This document shows, piece after piece, positions 956 through 21,740 of a stretch of 23,126 nucleotides of DNA; position 1 is the stretch's first letter, and the number at the start of each line of letters is the position of its first letter. Location of the stretch: positions 1 to 23,126 of IMG/VR virus record IMGVR_UViG_3300039149_000014; one strand, given 5' to 3'. Source of the stretch: a virus. The position numbers were made by a program, and so were the translations under genes. The notes below the pieces were generated by a model. That model saw only the letters and a list, made by a program, of their open reading frames with translations, was not told the origin of the DNA and did no database searches.

Positions 956-1338
956 GTCTCGTCTGGTGGCTCGGAGCCGGTTATCAGCGCCCGGGCCAGT
1001 TCCTGCGTTATCTGGCCGACTACCCAGCGGACCATCTTGTCCCTGTCCGCCCCACCATCCCGGACCAGATGCGCAGTGACCACAGTCATGCTCGTGAGGC
1101 TGTGACCACCGGCAAGGTCCAGCGAGGCGCGGATCTCAAACCGCTGCAGCCGGTCCTTGATTTGCTTGCCCTGCACTACCATGTCTATCGGCGCGCCCCT
1201 CCAGACATCCCACTGGAGCACAGCGCCATGGTGCTTGCGCAGGTGGTCCTCCAGCGCCTTGGCCTCTCTGCCATGCTCCTGTACGGCCCGCACCAGCGCA
1301 CCACCAAAGAGCAATTCAACCTCTGTCCACGCTGTCAT
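952..1338 (-). CDS. Conserved-looking hypothetical protein
   Basis: A 128-residue protein beginning MTAWTEVELLFGG is chosen because this ATG sits behind GAGGGAGGGGGAG, the same ribosome-binding cassette as the gene starting at 1699. The frame remains open upstream to a GTG at 1419, which would add 27 residues and also has a possible GAGG site, so the start is uncertain. The sequence reads as a mixed alpha/beta soluble protein without signal peptide, membrane segment or recognisable motif. Its stop overlaps the downstream methyltransferase start. No function is assigned. Confidence 0.65.
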   Translation of the reverse strand: MTAWTEVELLFGGALVRAVQEHGREAKALEDHLRKHHGAVLQWDVWRGAPIDMVVQGKQIKDRLQRFEIRASLDLAGGHSLTSMTVVTAHLVRDGGADRDKMVRWVVGQITQELARALITGSEPPDET

Positions 1339-1426
1339 CTCCCCCTCCCTCACGATGCCCGGGCATATCGCGTCGGCCTGGGCCATCCAATCGGCGGGCC
1401 ACTGCTCCCCCTTGCTCACGTCTGCC

Positions 1427-1699
1427 TCATTTCCTCCTCAGCGTCAGGCCCCTCGAGCACTCGCCCTGTATCTTCGGATTTGGCGTGATGGGCGGCGGCT
1501 CGGGTAGCCCATCTGGATACTCATAGACCACCCAGAAGTGCTCGCCCGACTTGCTTTCATAGCAGGGGTCACCCCCATAGCAATCTAAGCAATCACCGCA
1601 AGCATCACAGAAGTCCTCGCCACATTCTGGCTCGGCTTCCTCTGTGCGCCGAGATCGCTCATGGCCCTGCTTGTCTATGGTACAGATGTACTTCTTCAT
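1427..1699 (-). CDS. Small acidic Cys-rich hypothetical protein
   Basis: A 90-residue protein starting MKKYICTIDKQG behind a GAGGGAGGGGGAG site immediately before the ATG. Residues about 27-48 hold seven cysteines in the spacing CGEDFCDACGDCLDC followed by CYGGDPC-type positions, suggesting a small metal-binding knuckle. The C-terminal half is proline-rich (PDGLPEPPPITPNP). The upstream glycosyltransferase stops 11 bases before this start. The family is not recognised. Confidence 0.6.
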   Translation of the reverse strand: MKKYICTIDKQGHERSRRTEEAEPECGEDFCDACGDCLDCYGGDPCYESKSGEHFWVVYEYPDGLPEPPPITPNPKIQGECSRGLTLRRK

Positions 1700-1710
1700 C
1701 TCCCCCTCCC

Positions 1711-2697
1711 TCACATCACCCCCAGCGCCCCGAACGCATCCTCAAACCGCCGGCGCCACGTGTGCTCACGCCTGGCCCGCTCCGCGCCCCTGCGCCGGAT
1801 GGCCTCTGCCTCCTGCGGATGGGCCAGGTAGTGCCTGCACTTGTCGGCCAGGTCGGGCACGTCCTTCCAGGTCACGATCTCCTGCCCTATCTCGTAGTGC
1901 GCCGCCAACTCTGGGTTCGCCTGGGCCAGGTAGAACGCCCCGCACATGGGCGCCTCAAAGTCCCTGGCCTTCAGGCTCAGCAGTGCCGGGTCCGCCGTCT
2001 CGCTGATGCCGATGGTGATGGCAGCCCGGTTCATGGCCTCTACCATGGCCTCGGTGCCCAGTGGGCCATTCGGCCAGCCCTGGCCGTAGGGCCGCACGTC
2101 TACGCCGGCGTCCTGTAGGCCCTGCACAATCTCGGCCCGCCGCCCATAGTTCTTGCCGACGAACAGGACGCTAGGATTGCGCGAGCACTCCCGCGGCGCG
2201 AACACGCCCGGGTTGGCGCCGGCCGGCAGGTAGATCGCCCGCGCGCCATGCTCAGCGTACCACTCCAGCGCCGTCGGGTCGCTGGTCCAGCACAGGTCGA
2301 AGGCGCTGGCGATGTCCACCATGCCAGCGAAGCCGGTCGGCTCCAGGGCACTGTAGCGGTGCGTCTTGTCATCCAGCGTCATGTTGAGTGTCGGGATGCC
2401 CAGGTGCTCACGGATGGCGGTGATGTAGGCGGGGAACACAAGGCGCCCGCACAGGTAGCCGTAGAACACATCCAGCGGCGTCCGCTTATGGGTCTCCTGC
2501 ACGCGCTCCAGCAAGACCAGATTCATTGCGGCCTTGCCACGTCTGCCCCAATCCGACCGATGCCAATCTCCCGCATACTGGTCGTACCCGTCCTCCGCAT
2601 GCCAGTCGTACCACGTCAAGTCGCCCAACTCGCGCAGCGCCGGGGCCAGGTTGTGCCGCTCCCAGTTGAAGTGGCGGAAGGCGGCGAAGATGTTCAT
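1711..2697 (-). CDS. CgeB-like glycosyltransferase
   Basis: A 328-residue cytosolic protein with the layout of GT-B glycosyltransferases of the CgeB/YkvP type. The N-terminal half starts MNIFAAFRHFNWERHNLAPAL, a Rossmann-like entry. The C-terminal half has VLFVGKNYGRRAEIVQGL (about 177-194) and a glycosyl-transferase group 1 (PF13524-like) signature: KARDFEAPMCGAFYLAQ (about 243-259), then NPELAAHYEIGQEIVTWKD and a helical tail ending HTWRRRFEDAF. The FEAPMCG segment corresponds to the donor-nucleotide binding region. The start overlaps the upstream stop (ATGA). It is one of three related glycosyltransferases in the block; donor and acceptor cannot be read from sequence. Confidence 0.85.
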   Translation of the reverse strand: MNIFAAFRHFNWERHNLAPALRELGDLTWYDWHAEDGYDQYAGDWHRSDWGRRGKAAMNLVLLERVQETHKRTPLDVFYGYLCGRLVFPAYITAIREHLGIPTLNMTLDDKTHRYSALEPTGFAGMVDIASAFDLCWTSDPTALEWYAEHGARAIYLPAGANPGVFAPRECSRNPSVLFVGKNYGRRAEIVQGLQDAGVDVRPYGQGWPNGPLGTEAMVEAMNRAAITIGISETADPALLSLKARDFEAPMCGAFYLAQANPELAAHYEIGQEIVTWKDVPDLADKCRHYLAHPQEAEAIRRRGAERARREHTWRRRFEDAFGALGVM

Positions 2698-3155
2698 GGC
2701 GTACCCCTTGGCGGTGCTGGCCCCCAGTCTGTCCAGTACGACGGCTCCGGGCTGTATGAACTATCGTCATTGGGAAGCCACACATAGCCATTCCACTCAC
2801 GCTGCTCCATATAGTCATTCCATTGGCAACCCTCGGCATCACGCCATTTGCTGTAGTACACATAATAGCGCCCATAGTCAGGCGGGTCTTCATCGGGCCA
2901 CTTGCGCCAAGTCGGTTCAGCACAGACCGTGAAGACAGGCCGCACCCGGGGCAAGTACTCATTTGGAGGCGTCTCCGGCCAGTCTGCCGAATCCAGTACC
3001 ACTGCCACAGTTCGCCCATGCTGTATTTGTAGGTCTACCAGATGCGCATCTTCCGGCAACGCCTCGCTCACCATCAGTGAGCGCATCCACTCACCCGGCG
3101 CCTTGCACAACGCGATTATCCACTCTGGTGCCACTTCCAATACGCGCCTGCCCAT
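2694..3155 (-). CDS. Hypothetical protein with DUF551-like C-terminal region
   Basis: A 153-residue protein. Residues 1 to about 75 form an unrecognised region (MGRRVLEVAPEWIIALCKAP). The rest is Trp-rich, with TWRKWPDEDPPDYGRYYVYY, an EWNGYVWLP segment and a closing SYWTDWGPAPP. This layout, a Trp start, a central 'W + tail' and a terminal YW..PLPxPP-like motif, recalls DUF551 phage proteins such as the one at 5067-5270. The ATG follows the strong cassette GAGGAGGGAGGGAG. Its first 65 bases overlap the 3' end of the dehydrogenase gene. Function is unknown. Confidence 0.6.
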   Translation of the reverse strand: MGRRVLEVAPEWIIALCKAPGEWMRSLMVSEALPEDAHLVDLQIQHGRTVAVVLDSADWPETPPNEYLPRVRPVFTVCAEPTWRKWPDEDPPDYGRYYVYYSKWRDAEGCQWNDYMEQREWNGYVWLPNDDSSYSPEPSYWTDWGPAPPRGTP

Positions 3156-3933
3156 CTCCCTCCCTCCTCAGTCTCCCATTAGCCGCCGCCATGCCGTCCA
3201 GCAATTCCGCCTGGCCGGCCAGCCAGTGCCGGATGGCGTCGGTGTCCTTCGGGAAGCACGCGCCGCCGTAGCCGCGCCCGCCATCCTTCCACACGTCCCA
3301 GTAGGCATTGGCGATGGGCTGGCCGATGTAGCCCAGGCTCGGCATGGCCCGCTTCAGCGCCCCAAAGTCGGCACCTGTCCGCTGCGCCATGTCATACAGC
3401 AGATTGGCGAATGTGACCTGTAGCGCGCCGTGGACATTGTGCGCATACTTGATGAGTTCGGCGGTGGTGCGGTCCACGTAGACGACCTGCATCGCCTTGG
3501 GCAGCAGGCCACGCCAGGTATCGGCCCACTCGGCAGCATCGCCGCCGACGACGTGCGCCCATGGATGGCAGAAGTCCCGCCAGGCCGAGCGCGCGGTCAG
3601 GAACTCGGGCCAGTGGTAGACGCGCCACTCGGGATGCTCCTGGGCGATGCGCTCGCAGGTGCCGGGCAGGACGGTCGAACGGATGACGACGGCATGCGGC
3701 ACCTTGGCCCACGATGCGATTAGTTCTATCACGTTCTCCAGGGCCGTCTGGTCCTGGCCGTCTGGTCCTGTCGGTGTAGGCAGGCACAGGAATACCCAAT
3801 CGGGCGTCTGCCAGTAGCTGCCGTCCCGCCGGTCCAGCGATATGCCCGCCAACTCCAGCGGCGTCCTCTCCTTCAGCCACCGATACAGTTGGCTCCCGAC
3901 CGTGCCGGTGTGGCCGTAGACTGTGACGCGCAT
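3091..3933 (-). CDS. UDP-glucose/GDP-mannose dehydrogenase-like enzyme, short form
   Basis: This 280-residue protein resembles nucleotide-sugar 6-dehydrogenases, which oxidise a sugar C6 alcohol to an acid using NAD. It has the NAD-binding loop GHTGTVGSQL (7-16), WVFLCLPTPTG (46-56), RSTVLPGT (85-92), the catalytic ELIKYAHN block with Lys162 and Asn166, and GGACFPKD with the nucleophile Cys226. All key residues are present. It is much shorter than typical family members (about 400-450 residues) and lacks the C-terminal nucleotide-binding domain, so activity is uncertain. GGAGG lies 8 nt before the ATG. Its last 22 codons overlap the next gene, an unusually long overlap here, suggesting a shifted 3' end. 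The epimerase nearby points to a GDP-mannose-type substrate. Confidence 0.82.
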   Translation of the reverse strand: MRVTVYGHTGTVGSQLYRWLKERTPLELAGISLDRRDGSYWQTPDWVFLCLPTPTGPDGQDQTALENVIELIASWAKVPHAVVIRSTVLPGTCERIAQEHPEWRVYHWPEFLTARSAWRDFCHPWAHVVGGDAAEWADTWRGLLPKAMQVVYVDRTTAELIKYAHNVHGALQVTFANLLYDMAQRTGADFGALKRAMPSLGYIGQPIANAYWDVWKDGGRGYGGACFPKDTDAIRHWLAGQAELLDGMAAANGRLRREGDGQARIGSGTRVDNRVVQGAG

Positions 3934-3934
3934 C

Positions 3935-4132
3935 TCAGCCACCTCCCAAGATATGCTCGCCGTGCGGCCCATCATAGACCTCGGGCTCGTCGGCCAACGC
4001 TCCGTCTATGTCCTCCCAGTCCTCTGCATTCTCCCTGATAAGCCTGCGTGCTTCCTCTGCGCTTTCAGCCATCGCGAAGGCAATCCCGCAGGTGTAGTCA
4101 CAGAATACATTATGCCACACATAGAGTTTCAT
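3935..4132 (-). CDS. Small conserved-looking hypothetical protein
   Basis: A 65-residue protein starting MKLYVWHNVFCDYTCGIAF. The ATG is coupled to the epimerase stop (ATGA at 4132-4129). The N-terminal strand plus the AESAEEARRLIRE helix give a small alpha/beta fold of the kind seen in short phage accessory proteins. The C-terminus is acidic and ends in glycines (GEHILGGG). It sits between the two nucleotide-sugar enzymes, but nothing in it suggests catalysis. Function unknown. Confidence 0.65.
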   Translation of the reverse strand: MKLYVWHNVFCDYTCGIAFAMAESAEEARRLIRENAEDWEDIDGALADEPEVYDGPHGEHILGGG

Positions 4133-5073
4133 CCTAGCACCTGCCGCTCTATCCACGGATACGTCAACGCTAGCCCCTCCTCCAGGCTCACGTTCGCCTG
4201 CCAGCCCAGCCCCTTGATGCGCTCGCTGCTGAAGTTGCGCGACCGTACGCCGACCGGGCCGTCTATGTGCTCCAGCGTTAGCCGCTTGCCGGCCACCAGC
4301 GCCACGGTGCGCGCCAACTCGTCCACAGTCACATACTCATCGCCGCCGATGTTGGCCGGCCCCTCCAGATCCGACAGCGCCAGCCGATAGATGCCGTCTA
4401 TCAGGTCGTCCACGTAGATGTAGTTACGCACGGCCCCGCCGTCGCCCCAGACCTCGATGCTGCCGCCGTCCTCGGCCTCGGCCACCTTGCGACACAGCGC
4501 CGCCGGCGCCTTCTCGCGCCCGCCCTGATAGGTGCCGAACGGCCCGTAGCAGTTCTGGAAGCGCGCGATCCTCACGGCCATGTCATGCTGCCGCCCGTAG
4601 GCCAGGGCCATGCGCTCGGCGTATAGCTTCTCCCAGCCGTATTCGTTGTCAGGCTGGGCCGGGTAGGCACCATCCTCATCCAGCGCCGGCTCGCCAGGCT
4701 CCATGTCCCGGTAGACGCAGACTGACGATGAGAAGAAGTAGCGCTTGATGCCGGCCAGGGCCGAGGCGTGCAACACGTTGGCATTGATAAGCGCGTTGTT
4801 GCGCATGATCTCGCACTCTGCCACGCTGATGTAGCCCATCCCGCCCATGTCGGCGGCCAGCTGGAACACCGCATCGAAGCCATCCGGAATGATGTCTGCC
4901 CAGGGCTGCGCCGGGCCGCGCAGGTCGGCCTGCACAAAGTCATCGGCATCGCTGGCCTTGAACTCAGGCGGATGCAGGTCGACGCCGCGCACCCACCAGC
5001 CCTCGGCCTTGAGGCGGGTCACCAGGTGCCCGCCGATGAAGCCGCCTGCGCCACAGACTATTGCGCCTAGCAT
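4129..5073 (-). CDS. GDP-mannose 3,5-epimerase (extended SDR family)
   Basis: This 314-residue enzyme would convert GDP-D-mannose to GDP-L-galactose/GDP-L-gulose. It has the NAD-binding GAGGFIGG (8-15), then AADMGGMGYI (73-82), the SSSVCVY segment with Ser and Cys119 (115-121), and the YGWEK active-site Tyr145/Lys149. The stretch RFQNCYGPFGTYQGGREKAP (171-190) and the closing GVRSRNFSSERIKGLGW match the plant GDP-mannose 3,5-epimerase pattern closely, including the cysteine acid/base. Length is close to the SDR norm. The ATG at 5073 is chosen because the preceding 28 in-frame residues lie inside the upstream gene and do not fit the Rossmann start. It overlaps the upstream gene by 7 bases. Confidence 0.88.
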   Translation of the reverse strand: MLGAIVCGAGGFIGGHLVTRLKAEGWWVRGVDLHPPEFKASDADDFVQADLRGPAQPWADIIPDGFDAVFQLAADMGGMGYISVAECEIMRNNALINANVLHASALAGIKRYFFSSSVCVYRDMEPGEPALDEDGAYPAQPDNEYGWEKLYAERMALAYGRQHDMAVRIARFQNCYGPFGTYQGGREKAPAALCRKVAEAEDGGSIEVWGDGGAVRNYIYVDDLIDGIYRLALSDLEGPANIGGDEYVTVDELARTVALVAGKRLTLEHIDGPVGVRSRNFSSERIKGLGWQANVSLEEGLALTYPWIERQVLG

Positions 5074-5270
5074 GTGCTTACCGCCCTCGGTGGTTCTGGC
5101 AGTGGCCGCCAGTAGTCTACCAGCGGCATGTGCGGCCCAATCTTGTATTCCTGCCACTCCTCGCCAGTCCAGTAGGCCATATCATACGGCTTATGCGCCG
5201 AGCAATGCACCCAAAAGTGCCCTCGTTTGGGCGGGTTCTCTCTAGGCCACTCGTGCCAACCATCCCTCAC
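5067..5270 (-). CDS. DUF551-like small protein
   Basis: A 67-residue, Trp-rich protein with the DUF551 layout: an opening WHEWPRENPPKRGHFWVH, a middle MAYWTGEEWQEY and the diagnostic end VDYWRPLPEPP. DUF551 proteins are common in phages and prophages; their function is unknown. A GTG start at 5270 overlaps the glycosyltransferase stop. The 153-residue protein at 2694-3155 appears to contain a longer relative, so the sugar block carries two. Confidence 0.75.
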   Translation of the reverse strand: MRDGWHEWPRENPPKRGHFWVHCSAHKPYDMAYWTGEEWQEYKIGPHMPLVDYWRPLPEPPRAVSTC

Positions 5271-6118
5271 AATCCCATCACCTCCAACATCTGCTGCGCC
5301 CGGTGGCGGTACGTGTGGCGGGCCAGGACGGCAGCGCGGCCCCGTGCGCCCCAGAAGTCCAGCGCCTCCGGGGGCGATGCCAGTACCTCGTCAATGACCT
5401 TCAGCGCCTCCAGGTTGGCCTGGTAGAAGTCCATCGGCGGCGGCTCTCCGAACAGTTCTGGTATGCCCGCCTCTGGCACCCAGTCCGTGACCAGCGGGCG
5501 CCCCGAGCACAGCGCCTCGAACACGCGCATGTTCAGATCGTCCGACGTCGACACGTTGAACACCACGCGCCCCTTGGCGTGGGCGATAGCCATGTCCTGC
5601 AGATAGGCCCCCTTGTACACGCCCAGGTCGTAGTGCTCGGCTAGCATCGCCAGCAGGCGCCGCCTGCGCTCGTATAGCGGGCTGCCGGGGTAGGTGTGGC
5701 CGCAGAACACTACGTCGTGCTCGGGCTCGATGCCCTCCGGCGGCGTGTGGATGTCCGGGTCGCAGGCCACGGGCAGCCAAGTGGCGGGCCGGTCGAAGCG
5801 GTCCACGTAGGCGCGCTGGGCGACGAACACATGATTGAAGTGTTGCGCGAACTCGCGGTGCCAGGAATGCTGGCTATGGCTGTCCAGGAACCAGGCGGCC
5901 TTGCGTTTTATAGGCAGTATAAATGGCCCCCGCCATTGGGGTCGCCCACCACCCGCTTCAACCCATATCACCGCATCACAGTGCCAGCAATCGCCCACTG
6001 CCTCCGGCTGCCCCGGCCCGAAGCAGCGCACCTCATGCCCCAGCGCCCGCAGCGCCTTGACCAGATAGTTGGCCGTCGTGTACGGACTGTAGCGGTAGGC
6101 GCACAGGATGTTAGCCAT
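5267..6118 (-). CDS. CgeB-like glycosyltransferase
   Basis: A 283-residue GT-B type glycosyltransferase. The N-terminus MANILCAYRYSPYTTANYLVKALRAL is truncated here to its key MANILCAYRYSPYTTANYL strand-helix. A middle block holds HDVVFCGHTYPGSPLYERR (about 134-152). The C-terminal donor region has NVSTSDDLNMRVFEALCSGR (about 195-214) followed by PLVTDWVPE, the family's Glu-containing loop. No signal peptide or membrane segment is seen, so it acts in the cytosol. It overlaps the upstream GT-methyltransferase gene by 8 bases. Of the three glycosyltransferases here, this has the most standard C-terminal motif. Confidence 0.87.
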   Translation of the reverse strand: MANILCAYRYSPYTTANYLVKALRALGHEVRCFGPGQPEAVGDCWHCDAVIWVEAGGGRPQWRGPFILPIKRKAAWFLDSHSQHSWHREFAQHFNHVFVAQRAYVDRFDRPATWLPVACDPDIHTPPEGIEPEHDVVFCGHTYPGSPLYERRRRLLAMLAEHYDLGVYKGAYLQDMAIAHAKGRVVFNVSTSDDLNMRVFEALCSGRPLVTDWVPEAGIPELFGEPPPMDFYQANLEALKVIDEVLASPPEALDFWGARGRAAVLARHTYRHRAQQMLEVMGL

Positions 6119-7277
6119 CGCTCACCGCCGGCCTCATCAGCACGTCGATGAACCGCTCCAGCGGATGCCCCGGCGGGTATGCCCGGCAGTACACGATGTG
6201 CCAGGGCCGGATGCCGTAGCCCTGGCCGTACTGCTGCCAGCGCTGGTGGTCCGCGTTGAAGTAGTCGAAGGTATCCGGCACCCACGCCCGCACGTGCGTT
6301 GGGTCGGCCCAGGCCACGGTCGCCCCGCGCTCGGCATTGGGCACGCGGATGTGCATGCGGCCGTTGGGCAACAGCGCCTGGTGACAGTCGTTCAACAGCG
6401 GTATTAGGTTCTTAATGTGCTCCAGCAGGTTGTCGGCTACGATGACATGGGAGCGCTTGGGCCGGACAAAGAACGGCAGGCCGGACTCCAGGTCTTCTTC
6501 TGCAACACGCGCACCGCCCCGCTTGTCCACGCCTATCATGCCCGGCCTGGGCTTCTCACCGCATCCCAGGTCCAGCATCACGCGCTCTGTTGGCACCGCG
6601 TCCATCAGCACCGCCGCACACTCCGCGAACGTCGGCACCTGCTCGCCCCGGACGGCCAGGATGTCGTAGTGACGCGGGTTGTTCATGCCCCACTTCTGCA
6701 TGTCGGCGTGTGTGTCGTTGGGCAGCACCCTCGCTTTGGCGTACAACTCATTCAGGTGGTCGTGCGGATAATACTCGCCATAGGTGCTGTTGGGCCGCTT
6801 TAGGTGTTCCCTCCAGCCCTCGCCCCAGACGTTGAGTTCCATATCCTCAGGCACGTCCAGTGTACGGCCGGGTCGCCAGTTGCCGACAAAGATAGCATCA
6901 AATGTCTGTTCCACGTCCATGGGCACCATGTCCGACGCGCCGGGCAGGTGCTTGGCGTCTATGCCCTGGCCCCGCAGGTGCTCCGCGAACTTGTAGCTCT
7001 CCGCGAACACCGCATCGTACTCCCAGCACCCCTGGGGCGTCACGGCATCCGGGTGGCCGATCACCCACAGGATGTTGTAGGTCCACTCGGGCAGGTGCTG
7101 GACTGCCGCGCCGTGGCAGTTGATGACGACCTCAGCCTCCAGCGCGTTCTCAGTGATGCTGTGGCCCAGCGCCTTGATGGCCTGCCCCAAGCTCTCCTTG
7201 AACCAGTAATCGCCCCAGCGCTTGCGCCGCTCCGGGTCGGCCTCTGCATCGCTGGCGGCGACGATGTAGACGTTCAT
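6111..7277 (-). CDS. Fusion: CgeB-like glycosyltransferase half + SAM methyltransferase
   Basis: A 388-residue two-domain protein starting MNVYIVAASDAEADPE. Residues 1-225 look like a CgeB-type glycosyltransferase (WGDYWFKESLGQAIKALGH, DAIFVGNWRPGR, WGEGWREHL) up to the donor-site region NNPRHYDILAVRGEQVPTF (199-217). The usual remaining C-terminal part is missing. From about 230 a class I methyltransferase follows: VMLDLGCGEKPRPG (233-246, motif I), IGVDKRGG, VIVADNLLEHIKN (278-290) and LLPNGRMHIRVP. GAGGAGAGAGGG precedes the ATG. The fusion suggests one protein that transfers and methylates a sugar, or a methyltransferase with a recruited sugar-binding domain; the second is my weaker guess. 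Confidence 0.82.
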   Translation of the reverse strand: MNVYIVAASDAEADPERRKRWGDYWFKESLGQAIKALGHSITENALEAEVVINCHGAAVQHLPEWTYNILWVIGHPDAVTPQGCWEYDAVFAESYKFAEHLRGQGIDAKHLPGASDMVPMDVEQTFDAIFVGNWRPGRTLDVPEDMELNVWGEGWREHLKRPNSTYGEYYPHDHLNELYAKARVLPNDTHADMQKWGMNNPRHYDILAVRGEQVPTFAECAAVLMDAVPTERVMLDLGCGEKPRPGMIGVDKRGGARVAEEDLESGLPFFVRPKRSHVIVADNLLEHIKNLIPLLNDCHQALLPNGRMHIRVPNAERGATVAWADPTHVRAWVPDTFDYFNADHQRWQQYGQGYGIRPWHIVYCRAYPPGHPLERFIDVLMRPAVSDG

Positions 7278-7297
7278 CCCTCTCTCCTCGTCTGTTG

Positions 7298-7438
7298 CTA
7301 TACCAAGTCGCTCAGACGCGCCTCGCGCATCTCGCGTTCGTAGTCCGCCTGCGCCAGCAGCGCTATGACCAACTCCTCCAGTGTTGTGATAGGCCGCCCA
7401 TATAGGTAGCCATAGAATGACTGATGCTGTTCCGCCAT
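7298..7438 (-). CDS. Very small hypothetical protein (46 aa)
   Basis: An ATG at 7438-7436 stands directly behind GAGGAGAGAGGGAG, the same ribosome-binding cassette used by neighbours, and the upstream gene stops just before it. The frame runs 46 codons to TAG at 7300-7298. The peptide starts MAEQHQSFYGYLYGRPITTL, followed by a helical, charged end (ALLAQADYEREMREARLSDLV). No family is recognised. It fills what would otherwise be a 170-base gap. Confidence 0.6.
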   Translation of the reverse strand: MAEQHQSFYGYLYGRPITTLEELVIALLAQADYEREMREARLSDLV

Positions 7439-7450
7439 CTCCCTCTCTCC

Positions 7451-7648
7451 TCACTTCTGCCTCAGCAACCGCATCCGCAGTATGCCCGTGGCCCGCGCTT
7501 TGGCCGGGTCGCCGTACAGGATGCGCTCCTCTTCCTCTGCCCGCACAGCCTCTGCGTGCGGCCGCATGCCCTCCACAATCCGCGCCCTGACCCAGGCTTC
7601 CAGGTCGAATGTGTCCCACTCCTCCGGTTCGGTTGGCAGTCTGTCCAT
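7451..7648 (-). CDS. Small helical hypothetical protein
   Basis: A 65-residue, acidic-then-basic protein starting MDRLPTEPEEWDTFDLEAWV, with AGGAGGAGC directly before the ATG. The remainder is predicted helical (RARIVEGMRPHAEAVRAEEE) and ends in a basic tail, GILRMRLLRQK. In size and position it could be a small virion or chaperone-like protein, but no family is recognised. The frame stays open upstream to 7717, but the ribosome binding site marks 7648 as the start. Confidence 0.6.
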   Translation of the reverse strand: MDRLPTEPEEWDTFDLEAWVRARIVEGMRPHAEAVRAEEEERILYGDPAKARATGILRMRLLRQK

Positions 7649-10473: not shown

Positions 10474-11931
10474 TCACGGATACGGGATGGCTTCGAGGCG
10501 AAAGGGACCGCGAAACGCGGCTTTCACCTCCTCGTCTGTCCCGGCCTGGGCCAGCCGGCCGGCGATGACCTGCTGCTGCTCATCGGTGAGCACGTCGCTG
10601 TCAAAGTCCACCGCTGCGCCCTTGCCGCTGCTCAGGCTCTTCAGGGCCTTGCGCCGCCAGCGGCGGATCTCCTCGCGCTGCTCCTGCTGCTGTGGCGGCT
10701 GGCCGGGCGGCGTCTGCTGCGGCTGCCGGGCCGCGAACGCCTGACGCTGCCGCTCTGCCGCCTTCGCCTTGTCCTCCTCGAGCCGCTGCCGGAACTGATT
10801 GTAGGTCATCTCACCGGGCAGGTCCATGCCGAGCATCTGCATTGCGACATCGAGCGGCACGCCTGATGCCGTGAGTTGCTGGAGGGCCACGGCCCGCTCG
10901 CCCTCGTCCTCCTGGAAGATAGAAAGCGCCTGCCAGTCCAGCACCAGGCGGAGGCTGATGGGGTTGAACAACTGCCGGTTGAGCCACGCCTGGATACGGA
11001 TGGCCTCGGGTACGACTGTCTCCTCGTAGAACGCCTGATGGTGTTCTTGGGCAGTCGCGAAGTTTGCCGCGTCGGCAATCATCGTCTCCGGCACGCCAGC
11101 GGCGACGGCGATCTGGCTGCGTATGGCCGCCAGCAGGTCGGGCATGGCTAGCTGCTCGGTCGGGAAGCCGATGACCTCAGGGTGGACACTGGCCCGGATG
11201 GCAACCGTCTCAAACGCCTTCTTGACGCCCTGCACCAGCCGCCGCCACCACGCTTCCAGCCGGTCCAACTCCTCCTGCTTAGGGTTGCCCTCTACGCTTA
11301 GCAGCACGGCGGGGATGGCGCCCCGGTCGAAGAACGACTCCGCGAACTGATTCATGGCCTGCGCCACGCCGGCCTCAGTCAGCACCTTCGATACCCAGCC
11401 CTTGCCCGGCCCAACCTCATCCTTCAGGTTGGGGTGCCAGTAGTAGAGCACGTCCTTGACTGGCTTCAGTGTCTCCTTCGGGCGGTTCGGCAACTGGCGC
11501 TCGAAATAGTCCAGGCCCTTGGTGGCCGAGTACTTGGGCGTGATGGTGGACGGCGCCAGCCAACGGTATCCCTTGTCCTTGACGAGGTTCTCCTCGCGCA
11601 GCCAATAGGCCCTACCGTAGAGCTGCACCGAGCCCTCGGTCATCCAGAGTATATCGGCCAGGCTCTCGGCGAACTCCCATTCCTGCTCCTGCGGCGCCTT
11701 GCCACCGCGCGGCTTGCCCGCCTTGTACACCTTCGCAGGGATAGCTGACAGGGCGTTGCAGCGCAGTTCTATGCAGCGGGACACCCACGACACGGCCTGG
11801 TACGCGCCGTGCTCGTCCAGCTCGCCATCGTCCTGCCCGCCGAACATGGTCTTCCAGTCCAGCGCGCTCATGCTCACGGCGCCGCTCTTGAGGGCATGCG
11901 ACTGCGCGACGTATACGAAGGACTTATTCAT
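10474..11931 (-). CDS. Phage portal protein
   Basis: This 485-residue protein is a portal of the HK97/SPP1-like type: the dodecameric ring at the capsid vertex through which DNA passes and to which terminase docks. Supporting blocks are AVSWVSRCIELRCNALSAIP (about 46-65), EGSVQLYGRAYWLREE, LYYWHPNLKDEVG and IAVAAGVPETMIADAANFAT (about 280-299), where the GVP.....  step is typical. The C-terminal third is a Gln/Pro-rich linker (QPQQTPPGQPPQQQEQ) followed by a helical region, and the protein ends RLEAIPYP. It lies 6 bases after TerL, and the frame at its stop shifts +1 into MuF-like coding sequence. Confidence 0.9.
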   Translation of the reverse strand: MNKSFVYVAQSHALKSGAVSMSALDWKTMFGGQDDGELDEHGAYQAVSWVSRCIELRCNALSAIPAKVYKAGKPRGGKAPQEQEWEFAESLADILWMTEGSVQLYGRAYWLREENLVKDKGYRWLAPSTITPKYSATKGLDYFERQLPNRPKETLKPVKDVLYYWHPNLKDEVGPGKGWVSKVLTEAGVAQAMNQFAESFFDRGAIPAVLLSVEGNPKQEELDRLEAWWRRLVQGVKKAFETVAIRASVHPEVIGFPTEQLAMPDLLAAIRSQIAVAAGVPETMIADAANFATAQEHHQAFYEETVVPEAIRIQAWLNRQLFNPISLRLVLDWQALSIFQEDEGERAVALQQLTASGVPLDVAMQMLGMDLPGEMTYNQFRQRLEEDKAKAAERQRQAFAARQPQQTPPGQPPQQQEQREEIRRWRRKALKSLSSGKGAAVDFDSDVLTDEQQQVIAGRLAQAGTDEEVKAAFRGPFRLEAIPYP

Positions 11932-11937
11932 TGCTCA

Positions 11938-13419
11938 TCAGTCACCCCACAGGAGAAGCGGGCCAGCGCCGGGCAGGTTGGCTAGCAGCAGGGATTCGCC
12001 TTTGTCGGGGCTTCGCCCCAGCCGTTTCTTGATTGCTTCCTTCTCCTCGATCTGCACGCCCGCGGTCGTCAGTTTGTAGTGTGCAGCACAGAGGTCAGCC
12101 ACAATCTCGTTGCCTGGCGGCAATGCAACGTCGTCGCCACGCTCGGGGTCCAGCGCGTCCCGCATCCGCCAGTAGTACTCGGCGCGCAGGTTCCGCATCT
12201 TCAACTTGCCACTCCGGTCGCGGTAGTCCGAACCACTCGCTGCATTGATCGGCTGCACAGCATTATACATCGTCACCAGCGAATCGTATGCTGAGGCGCC
12301 ATAGCCTATCACGTCGATGTTCACGTAGCCCGGCTCCTCATCGCCCAGCGCCTGCTTCACCAGCCCTGCCGTGGTAGGCCCGTCGCTGGTCGCCACGCCG
12401 GGCCAGGCCACAATCTCGTCAAACCAGTTGTCGTATCGCTTCGCCATCGCCGTGTTGTCTCGCCCCCCGCGCGCCGGGTCAATACCTGCTGCCGTCAGCG
12501 GCACCTGTGGACGCTCTCTTTCCAGCCATCGCCGCTGCGCCAGCCTCACCCATTCGGTAGGTATCACCTGCCAGGGGTCGGCGTCCACAGAGGCGCGAAA
12601 GTCGCCATACAAGAGTTGTGAACGCAGCGGCTCCGGCAGCGCCTGGAGCACACTCCTGTAGCGGTTGTCCTGCACGTAGAACGGATTGTCGTCCAGCAGC
12701 GCCGGAATGAACGTCCGTGAGCGCGGATAGATGGCCTCTCCCTTGTGCTCAATCGGCGTGTTGTCGGTGTACTCTCTCTCCTGGCCGTCAATCGTCGCAT
12801 ACCAGCGCAACTCCCCAGGCTGGGCCGGGTTGGGGTGCAGATCGTCCAGCCATGCCGCCCAGCGCCGTATCACCCAGCTGCCCTGCTCGTCTATCGGCGG
12901 GTTGCCTGTCGCTATGACCCGCACCCGCTGCTGCGGGTCTGTGGTGCGGTTCCAGCCGCAGATGAACTCGTATTGCGACTCCGTGAACTCCGGTATCTCG
13001 TCGAACGCCTTCAGGTCGTGCGGCCGGCCCTGCCAGTCTGTCTTGTTCTCCTCATACTGCACCGCGCCAAACTCGACGGTACGGCCGCCGGGCAGCGTCC
13101 AGATGCGGTCGGCCCTGTTCTCCTGGCCGTAGTCGCCGATCAACTCTCGGGCTCGGCGGATGACCTCACGCAGGTTCGGATAGACCCGCCGAAAGATGAC
13201 GCTGTGAGTGTGGCACTCTACCGCCATGCCGATGAGCAGGTCCGTCTTGCCACCGCCGGCAGCCCCGCCGTAGAACAACTCGTCGGCGCGAGTCAGGAAC
13301 GCCCTCCATTGCGGCTTACTCTGCGGCACCCATAGCGCCGTCCGAGTCTGGACCCGCGCCAGATATGCCTTCTCGGACGGTAGCAATGAGTGCAGATATT
13401 GCTCGGTTGTAATGCTCAT
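11938..13419 (-). CDS. terL: Terminase large subunit (ATPase and nuclease)
   Basis: This 493-residue packaging motor has all expected motifs. Walker A is GGAAGGGKT (51-59), Walker B LKAFDE (136-141) and the coupling motif ATGNP (170-174). The RNase H-like nuclease domain begins GIDPARGGRDNTA (312-324), with likely metal-binding Asp314 and Asp321, then VNIDVIGYG (366-374) and a later conserved Asp in the NEIVADLCAAH region. ATG at 13419 is chosen although the binding site is weak; the frame opens farther upstream. It overlaps the TerS gene by about 100 bases. It cuts concatemers and pumps DNA through the portal. Confidence 0.95.
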   Translation of the reverse strand: MSITTEQYLHSLLPSEKAYLARVQTRTALWVPQSKPQWRAFLTRADELFYGGAAGGGKTDLLIGMAVECHTHSVIFRRVYPNLREVIRRARELIGDYGQENRADRIWTLPGGRTVEFGAVQYEENKTDWQGRPHDLKAFDEIPEFTESQYEFICGWNRTTDPQQRVRVIATGNPPIDEQGSWVIRRWAAWLDDLHPNPAQPGELRWYATIDGQEREYTDNTPIEHKGEAIYPRSRTFIPALLDDNPFYVQDNRYRSVLQALPEPLRSQLLYGDFRASVDADPWQVIPTEWVRLAQRRWLERERPQVPLTAAGIDPARGGRDNTAMAKRYDNWFDEIVAWPGVATSDGPTTAGLVKQALGDEEPGYVNIDVIGYGASAYDSLVTMYNAVQPINAASGSDYRDRSGKLKMRNLRAEYYWRMRDALDPERGDDVALPPGNEIVADLCAAHYKLTTAGVQIEEKEAIKKRLGRSPDKGESLLLANLPGAGPLLLWGD

Positions 13420-13888
13420 CTTGAACTCGTATCGGCCCGCCGCCTGTGCCGCTATGCTCGTGTCTGTCGGGCGCATCAACTCCAATGATCTTGCACCGCC
13501 GCTCGATGCACCACTGCACGCCCTGGAGGAAGCGCGGATCCCCGGCCTGCCCCTTGCGCTGCGTGGCAACCTCGTATCGCTTGCCGTCCTTCACGTCTAT
13601 GGCCTTGGTGGCCTCAGTCTCGGCGTCCTCCTGGCTGCGCTGCCAGGCGGCCCAGTAGGTGCGCTCCAGGTGGTCTATCTTGGCGAGTTCCCGCGCCTTG
13701 GCCTCGTTGAAGTCCATCAGGGCCGACCGCAGCCACTCGCCCTGCAACGCCTTCAGGTCGCGGCTCACCGTGGACTGAGATATGCCAACCTGCTCGGCAA
13801 TCTCGGCCTGGAGGCGCCCGCGCAGATACAGGTCGGCAATCTGCCGCCTGTGTGCCGCTATCTGCGCGCTATCTCTAGGTCTGCCCAT
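13316..13888 (-). CDS. terS: Terminase small subunit (HTH DNA-recognition protein)
   Basis: A 190-residue protein with an N-terminal helix-turn-helix: LRGRLQAEIAEQVGISQSTV then SRDLKALQGEWLR (about residues 23-54). A central helical region (AKARELAKIDHLERTYWAAW) looks like the oligomerisation core, and the C-terminal third is low-complexity. Position just before TerL, with an overlapping 3' end, and the HTH-plus-coil layout are what TerS genes show. It would recognise the packaging site and recruit TerL. Transcription-factor function is a weaker alternative, because the HTH also resembles Mor/sigma-like DNA-binding folds. Confidence 0.8.
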   Translation of the reverse strand: MGRPRDSAQIAAHRRQIADLYLRGRLQAEIAEQVGISQSTVSRDLKALQGEWLRSALMDFNEAKARELAKIDHLERTYWAAWQRSQEDAETEATKAIDVKDGKRYEVATQRKGQAGDPRFLQGVQWCIERRCKIIGVDAPDRHEHSGTGGGPIRVQDEHYNRAISALIATVREGISGAGPDSDGAMGAAE

Positions 13889-13909: not shown

Positions 13910-14974
13910 CTAGTCCGCCAGCCGTCGGTCCAGGCTCATCTGCGCCAGTATCTGCTCTCTCACGTGCCCTGCTATTGCCCGCATGAATAGAGGCGGGACG
14001 CTGTTGCCGATGCGTGCCCACTTCTCTCCTGGTTCGCCGAGCAGCCTGAACCACTTGGGAAAGGATGCTATCCGCCTCAATTCCATAAAGGTGAGTGTCC
14101 TCTGTTCCGTGGGATGCCAGTAGTGATAATGACCAAAACCTGAATCGGCCAGCACCGCCATTGATGGCCTATCATATGGCAACCTGACATGAGAATGATG
14201 TCCAGGTTGAGAACCGCCTGAAGGAACGTTGAGCATGTCCTGATAGATCTTCGTATGGACTCCACAGATAAACGCTTCAGCATCAGCGGGCACGTTCTCA
14301 AATGCCTCTCGCACCGTGTACGGCCTCGCCTCTGCCTTCGGATGGCTCGGCTTCATGCCTAAGTCTTCCCGCACGCCCACGAATATCAGCCGCTCCCGGC
14401 TCTGTGGCACGTGAAAGTACATTGCATTCATCAGCCTGGCGCTTACCTTGTAGCCACTGGCCTTCAATTCTCGCAACACCTCGGCAAAGACCAGTTTCAT
14501 CTTGCCTTTGACCATGCCGGAGACGTTCTCAGCCACAAAGACCTTGGGTTGCAGGCCGCGCAGCAGACGAATATACTCCATGAATAGGTTGTTACGCGGA
14601 TCGTCCAGTTGCCGCTTGCCCGCCGTGCTGAATCCCTGGCAGGGCGGCGAGCCATCCAGCACGTCCAACTCACCGGGTTGCAGGCCGGTCATCTCTAGGC
14701 ATTCCCCTACGCTCAACTTGGCTATATCGCCATGATAGACCGGTACCTCTGGAAAATTGAGGCGGAACGTTGCCACGGCATTGTCATCCCATTCGACCGC
14801 CAGCAATTCGCGATAGCCCGCCATACTATAGCCGAGGCTGGAACCGCCACAGCCGGCAAAGGTGCTGATGACGGTCGGCGCATCTTCAGTCCTTGGCGCA
14901 AGATGTTGCCGCCATGCTTCAGTGAGAATGTCCAGATAGGTCACTTGGGCCACTTGTGACCGCACTCCGGACAT
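13910..14974 (-). CDS. C5-cytosine DNA methyltransferase
   Basis: A 354-residue enzyme that would methylate cytosine C5 in a specific DNA sequence. Motif I FAGCGGSSLG (39-48), motif IV GSPPCQGFS with nucleophile Cys112 (108-116), motif VI AENVSGM (148-154), motif VIII SRERLIFVG, and the closing GNSVPPLF motif X are all intact. The target-recognition region between VIII and X is about 90 residues. The ATG at 14974 overlaps the ParB-like gene by 34 bases; a GTG at 14944, GTGA-coupled to that gene's stop, is an alternative start. No restriction enzyme is seen beside it, so protection against host restriction or marking of phage DNA is likely. Confidence 0.92.
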   Translation of the reverse strand: MSGVRSQVAQVTYLDILTEAWRQHLAPRTEDAPTVISTFAGCGGSSLGYSMAGYRELLAVEWDDNAVATFRLNFPEVPVYHGDIAKLSVGECLEMTGLQPGELDVLDGSPPCQGFSTAGKRQLDDPRNNLFMEYIRLLRGLQPKVFVAENVSGMVKGKMKLVFAEVLRELKASGYKVSARLMNAMYFHVPQSRERLIFVGVREDLGMKPSHPKAEARPYTVREAFENVPADAEAFICGVHTKIYQDMLNVPSGGSQPGHHSHVRLPYDRPSMAVLADSGFGHYHYWHPTEQRTLTFMELRRIASFPKWFRLLGEPGEKWARIGNSVPPLFMRAIAGHVREQILAQMSLDRRLAD

Positions 14975-15489
14975 TCGATATACTCAACGTCATCAGCGAC
15001 CGATTCATCATACTCCTTGAACTCAACATCGGGCGGCGGTGCCTCAAAGTACATGCCTTCCTTCTGTGCCAACTCCGCCAGCATCTGCTGCACCGCGCTC
15101 TCGCCCGACTTGACCTCACTCAGCAGCGCGTCCAACTCTGCCTTGCTGGCCTGGGCCATTGCGCTCAGCGGGTCGTGCGTAGCGAGCGCATAATCGGCCT
15201 CGGCATCGGTCAGGTCCGTGACCAGCACGGGCCATTCCCTGTCCGGGTCCAGTGAACGCCGCAGATGCCCGTCTATGGTGGTCAGCGCCCCACCCTCGCG
15301 CTCCGAGTACCACGCCAGCAGGGCACCGGCGATGCCCAGCTCGCGCAGGACGCCGCTCATGGCGTGGGCCTGCGCCTCGCCATGGTCGCGCCACTGGGCG
15401 GGATGGTCGCGCAGGTCGCGCGCCTTCATGCGGCGCAGTTCCACGACGCGATCCTTGATGTTCATCAAGTCAAACGGCTTGCTCGCCAC
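14941..15489 (-). CDS. ParB-like nuclease-domain protein with C-terminal zinc knuckle
   Basis: This 182-residue protein begins with a ParB-N-like region: VVELRRMKARDLRDHPAQWR, then QAHAMSGVLRELGIAGALLA, then TTIDGHLRRSLDPDREWPVL. The D-G-H-L-R element corresponds to the ParB-like nuclease GxRR region. A coil-like middle (PLSAMAQASKAELDALL) precedes an acidic tail and a CPEC zinc half-site. Such short ParB-like proteins are common in phages beside methyltransferases or terminases. The GTG start lies right behind GGAGG with almost no spacer, so the start is uncertain; ATG at the MNIKDRV position is an alternative. It is the first gene after the promoter-terminator region. Confidence 0.7.
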   Translation of the reverse strand: MASKPFDLMNIKDRVVELRRMKARDLRDHPAQWRDHGEAQAHAMSGVLRELGIAGALLAWYSEREGGALTTIDGHLRRSLDPDREWPVLVTDLTDAEADYALATHDPLSAMAQASKAELDALLSEVKSGESAVQQMLAELAQKEGMYFEAPPPDVEFKEYDESVADDVEYIECPECGHKWPK

Positions 15490-15580: not shown

Positions 15581-15626
15581 AAAAAGGCCACCGACTGGAC
15601 ATCCCTCTCGGATGCCAGCGGTGGCC
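15581..15626 (-). terminator. Strong intrinsic terminator ahead of packaging genes
   Basis: Read on the minus strand, GGCCACCG, CTGG and CATCC pair with GGATG, CCAG and CGGTGGCC around a 5-base loop, a 17-bp stem with two single-base bulges, followed directly by five Ts. It lies 92 bases before the ParB-like start and downstream of the predicted promoter start site. It would stop transcripts from that promoter and from the upstream block, unless overcome by antitermination. Confidence 0.85.
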
Positions 15627-15657
15627 CATGCCGCATCTGCCCTATTCTGTTGCCGCC

Positions 15658-15686
15658 ATTCTAGCACATATGAGCGGCGTGGTCAA
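15658..15686 (-). promoter_or_regulatory. Predicted sigma70 promoter firing into a terminator
   Basis: Minus strand: -35 TTGACC (15686-15681), 17-base spacer, -10 TAGAAT (15663-15658). Both hexamers match the consensus at five of six positions with ideal spacing. The start would be near 15651, about 25 bases before the intrinsic terminator at 15626-15581. It lies in the 212-base gap between the RHH gene and the ParB-like gene, so late genes depend on read-through. No operator palindrome is obvious. Confidence 0.7.
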
Positions 15687-15701: not shown

Positions 15702-15860
15702 CTACTCCTCCCTTGGCTCTATCAGCCCCTCGCGCTCCATCCGCTGGCGTACCGCCTCGCGGATGTAGTCGCTCATGGTGCGCGGCTCCATATCCCGCAG
15801 CACCAGATACAGGTCGTAGTCCATGTCGATGTTCATCGACTGGCGCGGCTGGTCGGTCAT
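15702..15860 (-). CDS. Ribbon-helix-helix DNA-binding protein (52 aa)
   Basis: A 52-residue protein starting MTDQPRQSMNIDMDYDLYLV, coupled by ATGA to the upstream zinc-ribbon gene. A short polar strand (MNIDMDYDLYLVLRDM) is followed by TMSDYIREAVRQRMEREGL, the two-helix pattern of CopG/Arc/MetJ-like repressors, where the S-D-x-I-R-E-A-V-R helix N-cap is typical. RHH proteins bind DNA as dimers, often at palindromes. It is the last gene of the block driven by the 17046 promoter, so it may act on that promoter's palindrome or on the late promoter below; neither is shown by the sequence. Confidence 0.7.
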   Translation of the reverse strand: MTDQPRQSMNIDMDYDLYLVLRDMEPRTMSDYIREAVRQRMEREGLIEPREE

Positions 15861-16162
15861 GCGCTGGCCTCCTCCCCCGGCGTGTAGGTCGTGCCGCACA
15901 TGGCGCAGGTGACCTGCTCGCCCAGGCTGTCCCACACCAGATAGTCGGACGCGCTCTCGCCGCACCTGGGGCACGGGAAGGGGACCGCCACCTCCGCGTC
16001 GGACTGGTACTCATTCGCCAGGTCGATCACTTCCTGCACATCCAGCTCGTCCACCTGCCGGCCCTGCTCCTTGCACAGCGTCGCCACGGCGTGCTTGGCA
16101 TACTGGCTCATGTAGGGCACAAAGTCCGCCAGCGTCATCTCTGCTACTGTCTTGCCTGCCAT
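15857..16162 (-). CDS. Zinc-ribbon hypothetical protein
   Basis: A 101-residue protein starting MAGKTVAEMTLADFVPYMSQ behind AGGAGCAGGGAG. The first two thirds are helical (AVATLCKEQGRQVDELDVQE). The C-terminal third holds CPRCGESASDYLVWDS and CAMCGTTYTP: two CxxC pairs about 25 residues apart, a classic zinc ribbon. The zinc ribbon may bind nucleic acid. It overlaps the RHH gene by 4 bases (ATGA). No family name is recognised. Confidence 0.65.
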   Translation of the reverse strand: MAGKTVAEMTLADFVPYMSQYAKHAVATLCKEQGRQVDELDVQEVIDLANEYQSDAEVAVPFPCPRCGESASDYLVWDSLGEQVTCAMCGTTYTPGEEASA

Positions 16163-16197
16163 CTCCCTGCTCCTCTCTGCTAGCGGCTCAGTCGCCG

Positions 16198-16744: not shown

Positions 16745-17005
16745 TTATCCCAGGTAATCTCCGAGGGTATGCTGGGTACGCCCGGATACCTCTTCCTCTA
16801 CCTTCGGGTAGATCGGGAAACGGACCAAGTTCTTGACCACTCTCAGCTCCGCCCCGTCCAGTTCCTCGACCGCGATCACAACCAGCTCGTAGGTGGCACC
16901 CTTGTTCATCTCCCAGGTGTCGCGCTCGGATGTGTACTCTTCCTCGCGGAGAACCGTCCCGTGCCAAGTCTCTCCGTTGCTGTTCTCAAACTCTACCCTC
17001 TGCAT
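16745..17005 (-). CDS. First gene after the palindromic promoter: hypothetical protein
   Basis: An 86-residue acidic protein starting MQRVEFENSNGETWHGTVLR behind AGGAGCAGGGAG. The strand-rich middle (KGATYELVVIAVEELDGAEL) looks like a small beta barrel. It lies about 34 bases downstream of the predicted transcription start, so it would be the promoter-proximal product of this block. It is followed by a 52-base gap. No family is recognised. Confidence 0.6.
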   Translation of the reverse strand: MQRVEFENSNGETWHGTVLREEEYTSERDTWEMNKGATYELVVIAVEELDGAELRVVKNLVRFPIYPKVEEEVSGRTQHTLGDYLG

Positions 17006-17045: not shown

Positions 17046-17075
17046 ATTATACAGCATATATATATATGCTGTCAA
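17046..17075 (-). promoter_or_regulatory. Consensus sigma70 promoter with palindromic operator in its spacer
   Basis: Minus strand: -35 TTGACA (17075-17070), 18-base spacer, -10 TATAAT (17051-17046). Both hexamers are perfect consensus. The spacer is part of a perfect 22-bp palindrome, 17072-17051, built of an AT-alternating core flanked by GC and GCTGT arms. A repressor bound there would cover both hexamers. Transcription would start near 17039 and enter the gene starting at 17005. Confidence 0.85.
17051..17072. repeat. Perfect 22-bp palindrome (candidate operator)
   Basis: The 22 bases are their own reverse complement: ACAGC, a 12-base alternating AT core, and GCTGT. The length and two-fold symmetry fit a dimeric repressor site. 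Candidate ligands encoded nearby are the RHH protein (15702-15860) and the HTH protein (19967-20194). An AT-alternating core could also ease strand opening. Confidence 0.85.
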
Positions 17076-20194: not shown

Positions 20195-20903
20195 CGTCAC
20201 CCTCCTCTACTCTCCTCACCATCACGAACCACGCCCAGCCGTCATCCCCCCAGGGATGGCGCGGGTGGTAGTGGCCCCAGGCCTCTGCCATCGCCCGCTG
20301 CGCCATCGTGGCTATCAGGCCGTCCAGGTCTGCCCCTGGGGCCACCCAGGCCGGCAGATGGCGCACGACGTTGACGCCAGCGGCCTCTACCTGCTCCGGC
20401 TTGATGCCCTGCCAGCGAGCCGCCTTCACATGCTCGACCTCGACGGTGGCGCGGCTGGCCCAGCGGGGCATGTGGGTGGCCGATGTCCAGGGGCCTCTGT
20501 AGTCGTCATTCGTGGCCCGATGGATGGGAACGTACTCACTCTCGTTGCCCATGTGGATGGGATAGCCCTCCAGGTCGGGGTCGCCCGCGTCCATGGCCAT
20601 CTCATGGCTGGCGCCCTCGTATATCGGATGCTCACAAACCCAGTAGGCCCAGCATTCCCGCACCCACCGGCGTTCGCCAGGCTTGCCGTAGGGCGAATAC
20701 ACATCACAGTCCGCAATGCGGCTGCCATCTGTATCATAGAAGGCGGCATAGACGTTGCCTCGCTTGTGGTCCTCTAGCACCCTGGCAGAGGCGATCTCGC
20801 TAACGATAGCCTCAGGCTGCTTCGCCATAGGCCGCACCAGCAGCACGCGCCCCCGCTCCAGCAGCGCCCGGACCTCGTGGTCGTGTAGTATGATGGCCTT
20901 CAT
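20187..20903 (-). CDS. ASCH-like phage protein, paralogue 2
   Basis: A 238-residue protein starting MKAIILHDHEVRALLERGRV, with GGGAG 7 bases before the ATG, which is ATGA-coupled to the radical SAM gene. It shares the paralogue 1 layout: VYSPYGKPGERRWVRECWAY, THMPRWASRATVEVEHVKAA, and an aromatic end (WGDDGWAWFVMVRRVEEG). It lacks the Cys-rich insert of paralogue 1. Such phage proteins are related to ASCH/PUA-like folds and are of unproven function. An upstream in-frame ATG at 20930 is rejected because it lacks a binding site. Confidence 0.78.
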   Translation of the reverse strand: MKAIILHDHEVRALLERGRVLLVRPMAKQPEAIVSEIASARVLEDHKRGNVYAAFYDTDGSRIADCDVYSPYGKPGERRWVRECWAYWVCEHPIYEGASHEMAMDAGDPDLEGYPIHMGNESEYVPIHRATNDDYRGPWTSATHMPRWASRATVEVEHVKAARWQGIKPEQVEAAGVNVVRHLPAWVAPGADLDGLIATMAQRAMAEAWGHYHPRHPWGDDGWAWFVMVRRVEEGDDG

Positions 20904-21307
20904 GCTCCTACTCCCTTCGGCTCCAGCCACTCCTCAAACGGCACGCCTGCCGTGTACCGCAGGTTCGCCCAGTAGCGCATAAACCGGCGCTCGAGGTCAT
21001 CAGTCCAGTGCTCACCCACGTAGCGGTCGCGCTCCAGGCTGTCCAGCGGGTTGTAGCGCATCGGGTTGGGTTTGATGCCCATGCGCCGCAGTGTCTCCAG
21101 CCGGTAGTAGGCACTCTCTGGCGTGTCCCGGTAGCCCAGCATGATGTAACAGCGGATCCGCGCCTTGGGGAAGCCCGCCCGGCGGAGCATGGCGATCGCC
21201 TCCATGACGACCGGCTCCAGCGCCAGGTCATCCCAGGCCAGCCGCACGGTGCAGTCCAACTCAGCTAGCCGGCCGCTCGGCGTGATACGCTGTGAGCAAC
21301 CGGGCAT
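20900..21307 (-). CDS. Radical SAM protein, C-terminal half (second part of a frameshifted gene)
   Basis: The coding sequence that continues the radical SAM barrel: ELDCTVRLAWDDLALEPVVM, then AMLRRAGFPKARIRCYIMLG, YRDTPESAYYRLETLRRMGI and KPNPMRYNPLD. These are typical of the C-terminal part of phage radical SAM proteins. It lies in the +1 frame relative to the N-terminal half. The in-frame ATG at 21307 falls inside N-terminal coding sequence and has no good binding site, so it is probably not a real start. See the finding for the junction. Confidence 0.75.
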   Translation of the reverse strand: MPGCSQRITPSGRLAELDCTVRLAWDDLALEPVVMEAIAMLRRAGFPKARIRCYIMLGYRDTPESAYYRLETLRRMGIKPNPMRYNPLDSLERDRYVGEHWTDDLERRFMRYWANLRYTAGVPFEEWLEPKGVGA

Positions 21308-21740
21308 CGAGCCCCTGATTGAAGTCCACGCCCGCCAGCGGCTTCAACCGGTCCACCACGCGGTCAAAGTGTGCCCGGCTGCAGGCCAGGAGGTTGTTGT
21401 CGCATACGATGGGCCTGGCCGGCCAGTCGTCCAGCTCGCGCAACTCGCCCTCGATGCGAGGGACAGCGCAGAACGGGCAGCGGCGAGGGCAGCCCCGGCT
21501 CGTGAACGTCGCCTCCGGGTTGTGGTGCGGCAGTGCGTCCACCTCGCCGCCGATCTCGGCCACGTCGGCCAGATACCCGGGCATCAGCGACACGGCAGGC
21601 CCGCCGGCCCGGACGCGGTAACCCTCTGCCCGCAGCCAGGCCGCTCGCTGGTAGACGGCAGGTAGCGACCACGTGAACGGCACGCTCAGGTAGGCGGTAT
21701 GGTCCTCGGTCCACTCTGCAAAGCCGCCGCGCCAACTCAT
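21261..21740 (-). CDS. Radical SAM protein, N-terminal half (frameshifted at 3' end)
   Basis: A 159-residue reading frame starting MSWRGGFAEWTEDHTAYLSV behind GAGGAGGGGATC. It contains the iron-sulfur-binding CxxxCxxC motif as CPRRCPFC (about residues 84-91), preceded by an AGGPAVSLMPGYL segment, then VCDNNLLACSRAHFDRVVDR and GVDFNQGLDARLLTAYHAER. The motif coordinates the 4Fe-4S cluster that cleaves SAM. The frame then ends PAS-stop, while the family's barrel continues in the +1 frame. Substrate is unknown; phage radical SAM proteins of this type have no settled role. Confidence 0.85.
   Translation of the reverse strand: MSWRGGFAEWTEDHTAYLSVPFTWSLPAVYQRAAWLRAEGYRVRAGGPAVSLMPGYLADVAEIGGEVDALPHHNPEATFTSRGCPRRCPFCAVPRIEGELRELDDWPARPIVCDNNLLACSRAHFDRVVDRLKPLAGVDFNQGLDARLLTAYHAERPAS

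Follow-up and report, generated by a model that had tools for sequence, protein, structure and literature searches.

The region between positions 15581 and 15686 of the minus strand raises the question of whether a promoter that fires into a strong terminator just ahead of a phage packaging block is an antitermination-controlled late switch, as in lambda, or something else. The window analysed is an IMG/VR record taken in full, 23,126 bases long and perhaps a fragment of the phage genome; every gene recognised in it is on the minus strand.

Direct reading bore out the promoter of the original prediction, TTGACC-17-TAGAAT on the minus strand. It is of the extended -10 sigma70 type (15658–15686; 10/12 plus TG), with the -35 hexamer TTGACC at 15686–15681, the -10 hexamer TAGAAT at 15663–15658, a 17-nt spacer ACGCCGCTCATATGTGC and a TG one base ahead of the -10. 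The scores assume a sigma70 promoter model, and the consensus of the host may differ from it. Transcription is predicted to start at A15651, a C/A step at position 7 after the -10. The spacer also includes a near-palindrome, GCTCATATGTGC (10/12), which was spotted by eye, has no support across the relatives and could well be due to chance. Lambdoid phages carry a sigma-pause element in their first transcribed bases, and in the window a weak -10-like word, CAGAAT (15644–15649, minus strand, +3 to +8), is found at that position, which is suggestive only. The other minus-strand promoter-like sites of the window scoring at least 9/12 were those at 17075 (12/12) and 10826 (9/12), and no sigma70-like site of at least 9/12 was found on the minus strand between the terminator and the start of the portal gene. 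The first of these is a perfect promoter, TTGACA-18-TATAAT (17075–17046, minus strand), located ahead of an 86-aa ORF (16745–17005), and it would drive the small-gene block ending at the terminator.

The predicted start is followed after 24 nt by the intrinsic-terminator hairpin (15586–15627, minus strand, about -34 kcal/mol) and a TTTTT tract read directly at 15581–15585, so that the predicted RNA (15651–15581) is 71 nt long. The terminator was thus as strong, as close to the start (within about 25 bases) and as well provided with Ts (five) as predicted, but its stem has 18 pairs instead of 17, with a 5-nt loop and two one-base bulges in the 3' side. The hairpin with its T-run (15627–15581) is the sole convincing intrinsic terminator of the window, although an initial terminator scan overlooked it because of the bulged stem. 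The minimum free energy of the segment 15660–15570 was -39.8 kcal/mol in comparison to -30.7 ± 3.3 in shuffled sequences, none of 200 shuffles being as stable. In 300 dinucleotide-shuffled windows, both strands included, only six promoter–terminator pairs were found (0.02 per window), none of them with a ΔG of -25 kcal/mol or below, whereas the real window has one at -34. The promoter and the terminator of the window are therefore real and improbable by chance.

Two kinds of RNA element were rejected for this promoter–terminator cassette: an attenuator or riboswitch leader, because the 24 nt ahead of the hairpin are too short and one fold dominates, and an oop-like antisense RNA, because the cassette lies between genes and has the orientation of the late genes. 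Rfam and tRNA searches gave no match, and comparison of the 71-nt RNA with the rest of the window revealed neither unusual complementarity nor an antisense target.

The gene order past the terminator is ParB-like protein, methyltransferase, putative TerS, TerL and portal, all on the minus strand. The distance of 92 nt from the last T to the first codon of this block, given in the original prediction, was confirmed (GTG 15489). The ParB-like gene (14941–15489; starting at GTG 15489 or at an ATG further in) encodes a C-terminal zinc-ribbon motif and has relatives in the loci L001 and L002; the protein itself had no match in the Pfam search, and its name is inferred from relatives such as those in L002 and L126. 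It is followed by a C5-cytosine DNA methyltransferase (13910–14974; PF00145, 3.6e-59), a putative small terminase (13316–13888), which is an HTH protein directly ahead of TerL and similar to proteins preceding TerL in relatives, the large terminase subunit (11938–13413; phrog_979, 6.8e-40) and the portal protein (10474–11931; PF04860, 3.9e-30). Further along the minus strand, at 308–7600, genes looking like sugar-nucleotide, methyltransferase and glycosyltransferase-type genes come after the head genes, in the place expected for the capsid genes. A radical-SAM-like gene within 20900–21740 is split into two overlapping minus-strand ORFs (21261–21740 and 20900–21307), both of which match a single ORF of L035 (1556–2386), pointing to a frameshift or a sequencing error.

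No Q homologue had been recognised in the window by the original prediction, and the searches agreed: the Q families PF06530 and PF03589 (Pfam models) were found in none of the 29 records, the window included. Neither did the five genes upstream of the cassette include any antitermination match in Pfam or PHROG. The two genes proposed earlier as a new antiterminator, a small ribbon-helix-helix (RHH)-like ORF (15702–15881, minus strand), the stop codon of which lies 16 nt before the -35, and a 108-aa zinc-ribbon protein with weak zinc-ribbon matches (15857–16183, minus strand), fared poorly and are candidate regulators only. The RHH-like ORF had no match in the family searches (Pfam, PHROG), and a scan of viral contigs revealed no relatives of it, of the zinc-ribbon gene or of a gene for a 164-aa protein; the locus set, too, held no relatives of the small genes immediately upstream. 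The structure model of the zinc-ribbon protein, of moderate confidence (pLDDT 69), gave no significant match in the fold search, and the model of the 164-aa protein was too poor for such a search. In one relative, the gene directly upstream of the cassette (L174:3-479) matches phrog_1558 (2e-42) and, weakly, a phage transcriptional activator family, and is a possible regulator as a single case. Since neither of the two Pfam models used detected the gene that defines such a system, the layout cannot be classed as Q-controlled.

The scan for similar cassettes covered 80 viral and 12 genome loci with TerL relatives and 80 loci with methyltransferase relatives, and required a promoter followed by a compact hairpin and a T-run within about 120 nt. 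The positive controls, lambda pR'–tR' and P22 PR'–tlate, were recovered, and the scan also picked up P22 oop and its phi80 homologue M3; since both late leaders and oop RNAs are recovered, a layout of this kind can be that of a late switch or that of a small RNA gene. A cassette of about 100 nt was found to recur on the late strand of the TerL and methyltransferase relatives, with unrelated sequence. In the TerL set, a promoter (score ≥ 10) was present just upstream of 11 of the 98 late-strand terminators, while 0.5 were expected from shuffles; two sets of displaced windows yielded 2 and 1, respectively, and the antisense strand 1 of 106. Promoters running into a terminator numbered 16 of 105 on the late strand of the methyltransferase set against 3 of 85 on the antisense strand. 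With both sets pooled, the counts were 32 of 201 and 5 of 136, respectively (Fisher p = 0.0003). These and the other statistics are to be read with the thresholds chosen during the analysis, the window itself counted, de-duplication by identical sequence only and an assumed promoter model. The tail following the pooled hairpins was T in 32 cases, A in 5, C in 8 and G in 6, and this excess of T suggests that terminators are enriched rather than plain leader hairpins or hairpins of any kind. When 20 elements, including that of the window, were aligned at the -10, a pyrimidine was present at position 6 in 16 and a purine at position 7 in 17 of them, which is the initiator signature expected and was absent from the search criteria. 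The -10-like pause word was not enriched across these elements (2 observed, 2.2 expected).

The cassette was not general among the relatives. It was detectable within 1 kb upstream of the methyltransferase in 6 of the 64 methyltransferase relatives and not in the remaining 58; this upstream kilobase included six sense and no antisense cassettes per 64 kb, in comparison to 3 per 188 kb within the downstream module. The cultured TerL relatives BPP-1, AP1, DC33, 4316, PaV-LD and CL131 had no clear late cassette on the TerL strand. One record (G001, loci L096/L097) includes three late-strand cassettes with RNAs of 82–87 nt, which share no motif beyond the -10 and the T-run and none in the spacer, whereas a single factor recognising a specific sequence would be expected to load at promoters with a common motif. 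CCTCC stretches, which are anti-Shine-Dalgarno-like, were seen in the short RNAs of L013, L018, L019 and L080, in the last of these in a hairpin loop.

With several gene names read by eye from the sequence and not from database matches, the cassettes of the relatives were placed ahead of ParB–methyltransferase(–terminase) genes as in the window (L119, L126, L138, L153 and L174), ahead of TerS (L013 and L070), membrane or lysis-like genes (L004, L138 and L153), the portal gene (L132 and L192) and the prohead protease gene (L004, L016, L043 and L065). By these positions they lie at the starts of late blocks. The next ORF begins within about 45 nt of the T-run in 16 of the 32 cassettes, some of these distances being underestimated because the ORF caller picks early start codons. 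Such a distance would leave no room for a promoter of its own, so transcription would have to pass the terminator.

The cassette of the window is probably the leader of a packaging or late operon, similar to pR'–tR' of lambda and P22 and needing read-through by a factor outside the Q families tested. Host sigma70 polymerase would start at about 15651 and by default halt at the hairpin after an RNA of about 71 nt, and transcripts of the upstream block would end at the same hairpin. The ParB-like, methyltransferase, TerS, TerL and portal genes would then be expressed only when polymerase passes it, as the packaging genes have no other recognisable promoter. The 24 nt of RNA ahead of the hairpin leave no room for an alternative antiterminator fold or a put- or nut-like RNA site, and a read-through factor would thus load at the promoter or bind the polymerase directly. 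Promoter loading or direct polymerase binding is the mode of Q, AlpA, GafZ and Xp10 P7. The lambda-like late switch of the original prediction stands as far as position, strand and geometry are concerned, which match the pR'–tR' leaders, and the arrangement recurs before the late blocks of relatives; a Q family, a shared binding motif and an enriched sigma-pause were not found in the records and relatives searched. The points against this explanation are the antiterminator gene not found, the lack of a common spacer motif in the three G001 cassettes, the pause word not enriched, the low share of methyltransferase relatives with the cassette and the assumed promoter model; some natural read-through might also be enough by itself.

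That the cassette instead is a stand-alone small-RNA gene at a module boundary, with the RNA of about 71 nt as its product and the packaging genes transcribed otherwise, is considered unlikely. A promoter and a terminator at such spacing are the design of phage small-RNA genes such as P22 oop and phi80 M3, the pR'–tR' product of Stx phages, StxS, is a working small RNA (PMC7873438), and the RNAs of three relatives (L013, L018 and L019) have the CCTCC stretches. However, the sequence is not conserved across relatives, has no Rfam match and shows no unusual complementarity within the window, and the cassette is intergenic and sense to the late genes, unlike oop, which is antisense to a gene. A small-RNA gene would also leave unexplained how the genes starting right past the T-run are transcribed. 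The sense orientation, the position at the operon start and the lack of an antisense target in the window favour a switch over a small RNA gene. A late switch and a working RNA of about 71 nt appear compatible, and by analogy with StxS (PMC7873438) the RNA may also act.

Quite unlikely is a leaky attenuator without a dedicated factor, in which a fixed fraction of polymerases passes the hairpin, giving a modest and constant level of packaging-gene expression, with the hairpin closing the operon upstream as well. In its favour, neither an antiterminator gene nor a shared loading motif was found in the sets searched, and several late-block cassettes per genome, such as the three in G001, would fit level-setting. 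The hairpin of the window is, however, very stable and has a clean T-run, so that little leakage would be expected, and late genes usually need high and timed expression. A chance neighbourhood, with the terminator closing the upstream small-gene operon and an unused promoter-like word ahead of it, is very improbable, for even if the upstream small genes need a terminator and consensus matches alone are no evidence of function, the shuffle rate of 0.02 per window, the enrichment in relatives and the initiator signature all speak against it.

If the preferred reading, a leader that needs a read-through factor, is extended to the relatives, the result is a group of uncultured phages in which the packaging, lysis, portal and capsid blocks are each under their own leader and are served by an undescribed antiterminator family with no shared DNA site in the spacer, acting for example by direct polymerase binding; this generalisation is tentative and rather unlikely. 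The recurrence of the layout in uncultured phages related by TerL and methyltransferase, without a recognisable Q and ahead of several late blocks in one genome, suggests antiterminators not yet recognised, and the cassette offers a simple sequence signature for hunting them. The short RNAs, if stable, would be a further source of phage small RNAs, as is StxS.

Detailed knowledge of antitermination at late genes comes from a small number of lambdoid phages and some systems that work in a similar way, such as AlpA and GafZ. In lambdoid phages Q has a binding element between the -35 and the -10, together with a -10-like pause (PMC6606751), and AlpA, which is also loaded between these two hexamers, allows a terminator to be bypassed (PMC7969949). 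The AlpA-controlled alpB promoter of Pseudomonas aeruginosa resembles the window in having the terminator immediately ahead of the first gene, but belongs to a chromosomal lysis pathway. In Caulobacter, GafZ is a promoter-loaded antiterminator that turns on the gene-transfer-agent cluster with its phage-like genes for packaging and heads, and GafY/GafZ bind to a near-palindrome within the promoter spacer (PMC11150451). The spacer of the window also has a near-palindrome, which could well be chance, and in the GafY/GafZ system the terminator comes after the first gene while in the window it comes ahead of it. StxS, which arises when transcription from PR' stops by default at tR' and which works as a small RNA (PMC7873438), is similar to the window RNA in its layout as a short promoter-to-terminator product, but it binds Hfq and has known targets, whereas no target of the window RNA was found within the window. 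The lambdoid leaders are controlled by Q or gp23 and have the lysis genes first, whereas in the window the packaging genes (ParB-like, methyltransferase, terminase) come first and neither a Q-type gene (PF06530 and PF03589) nor a recognisable Q binding element was found. The late leaders of lambda, P22, phi80 and 21 consist of a sigma70 promoter, a short RNA and a strong terminator within 60–200 nt, with same-strand late genes behind. Correspondingly, the window has a sigma70-type promoter directly upstream of late genes on the same strand and an intrinsic terminator within about 200 nt, with no gene between the two. In the records of P22 and phi80 the late promoter and terminator are annotated with this layout, and the distance that is 101 nt in the window is 89 nt in P22 PR'–tlate.
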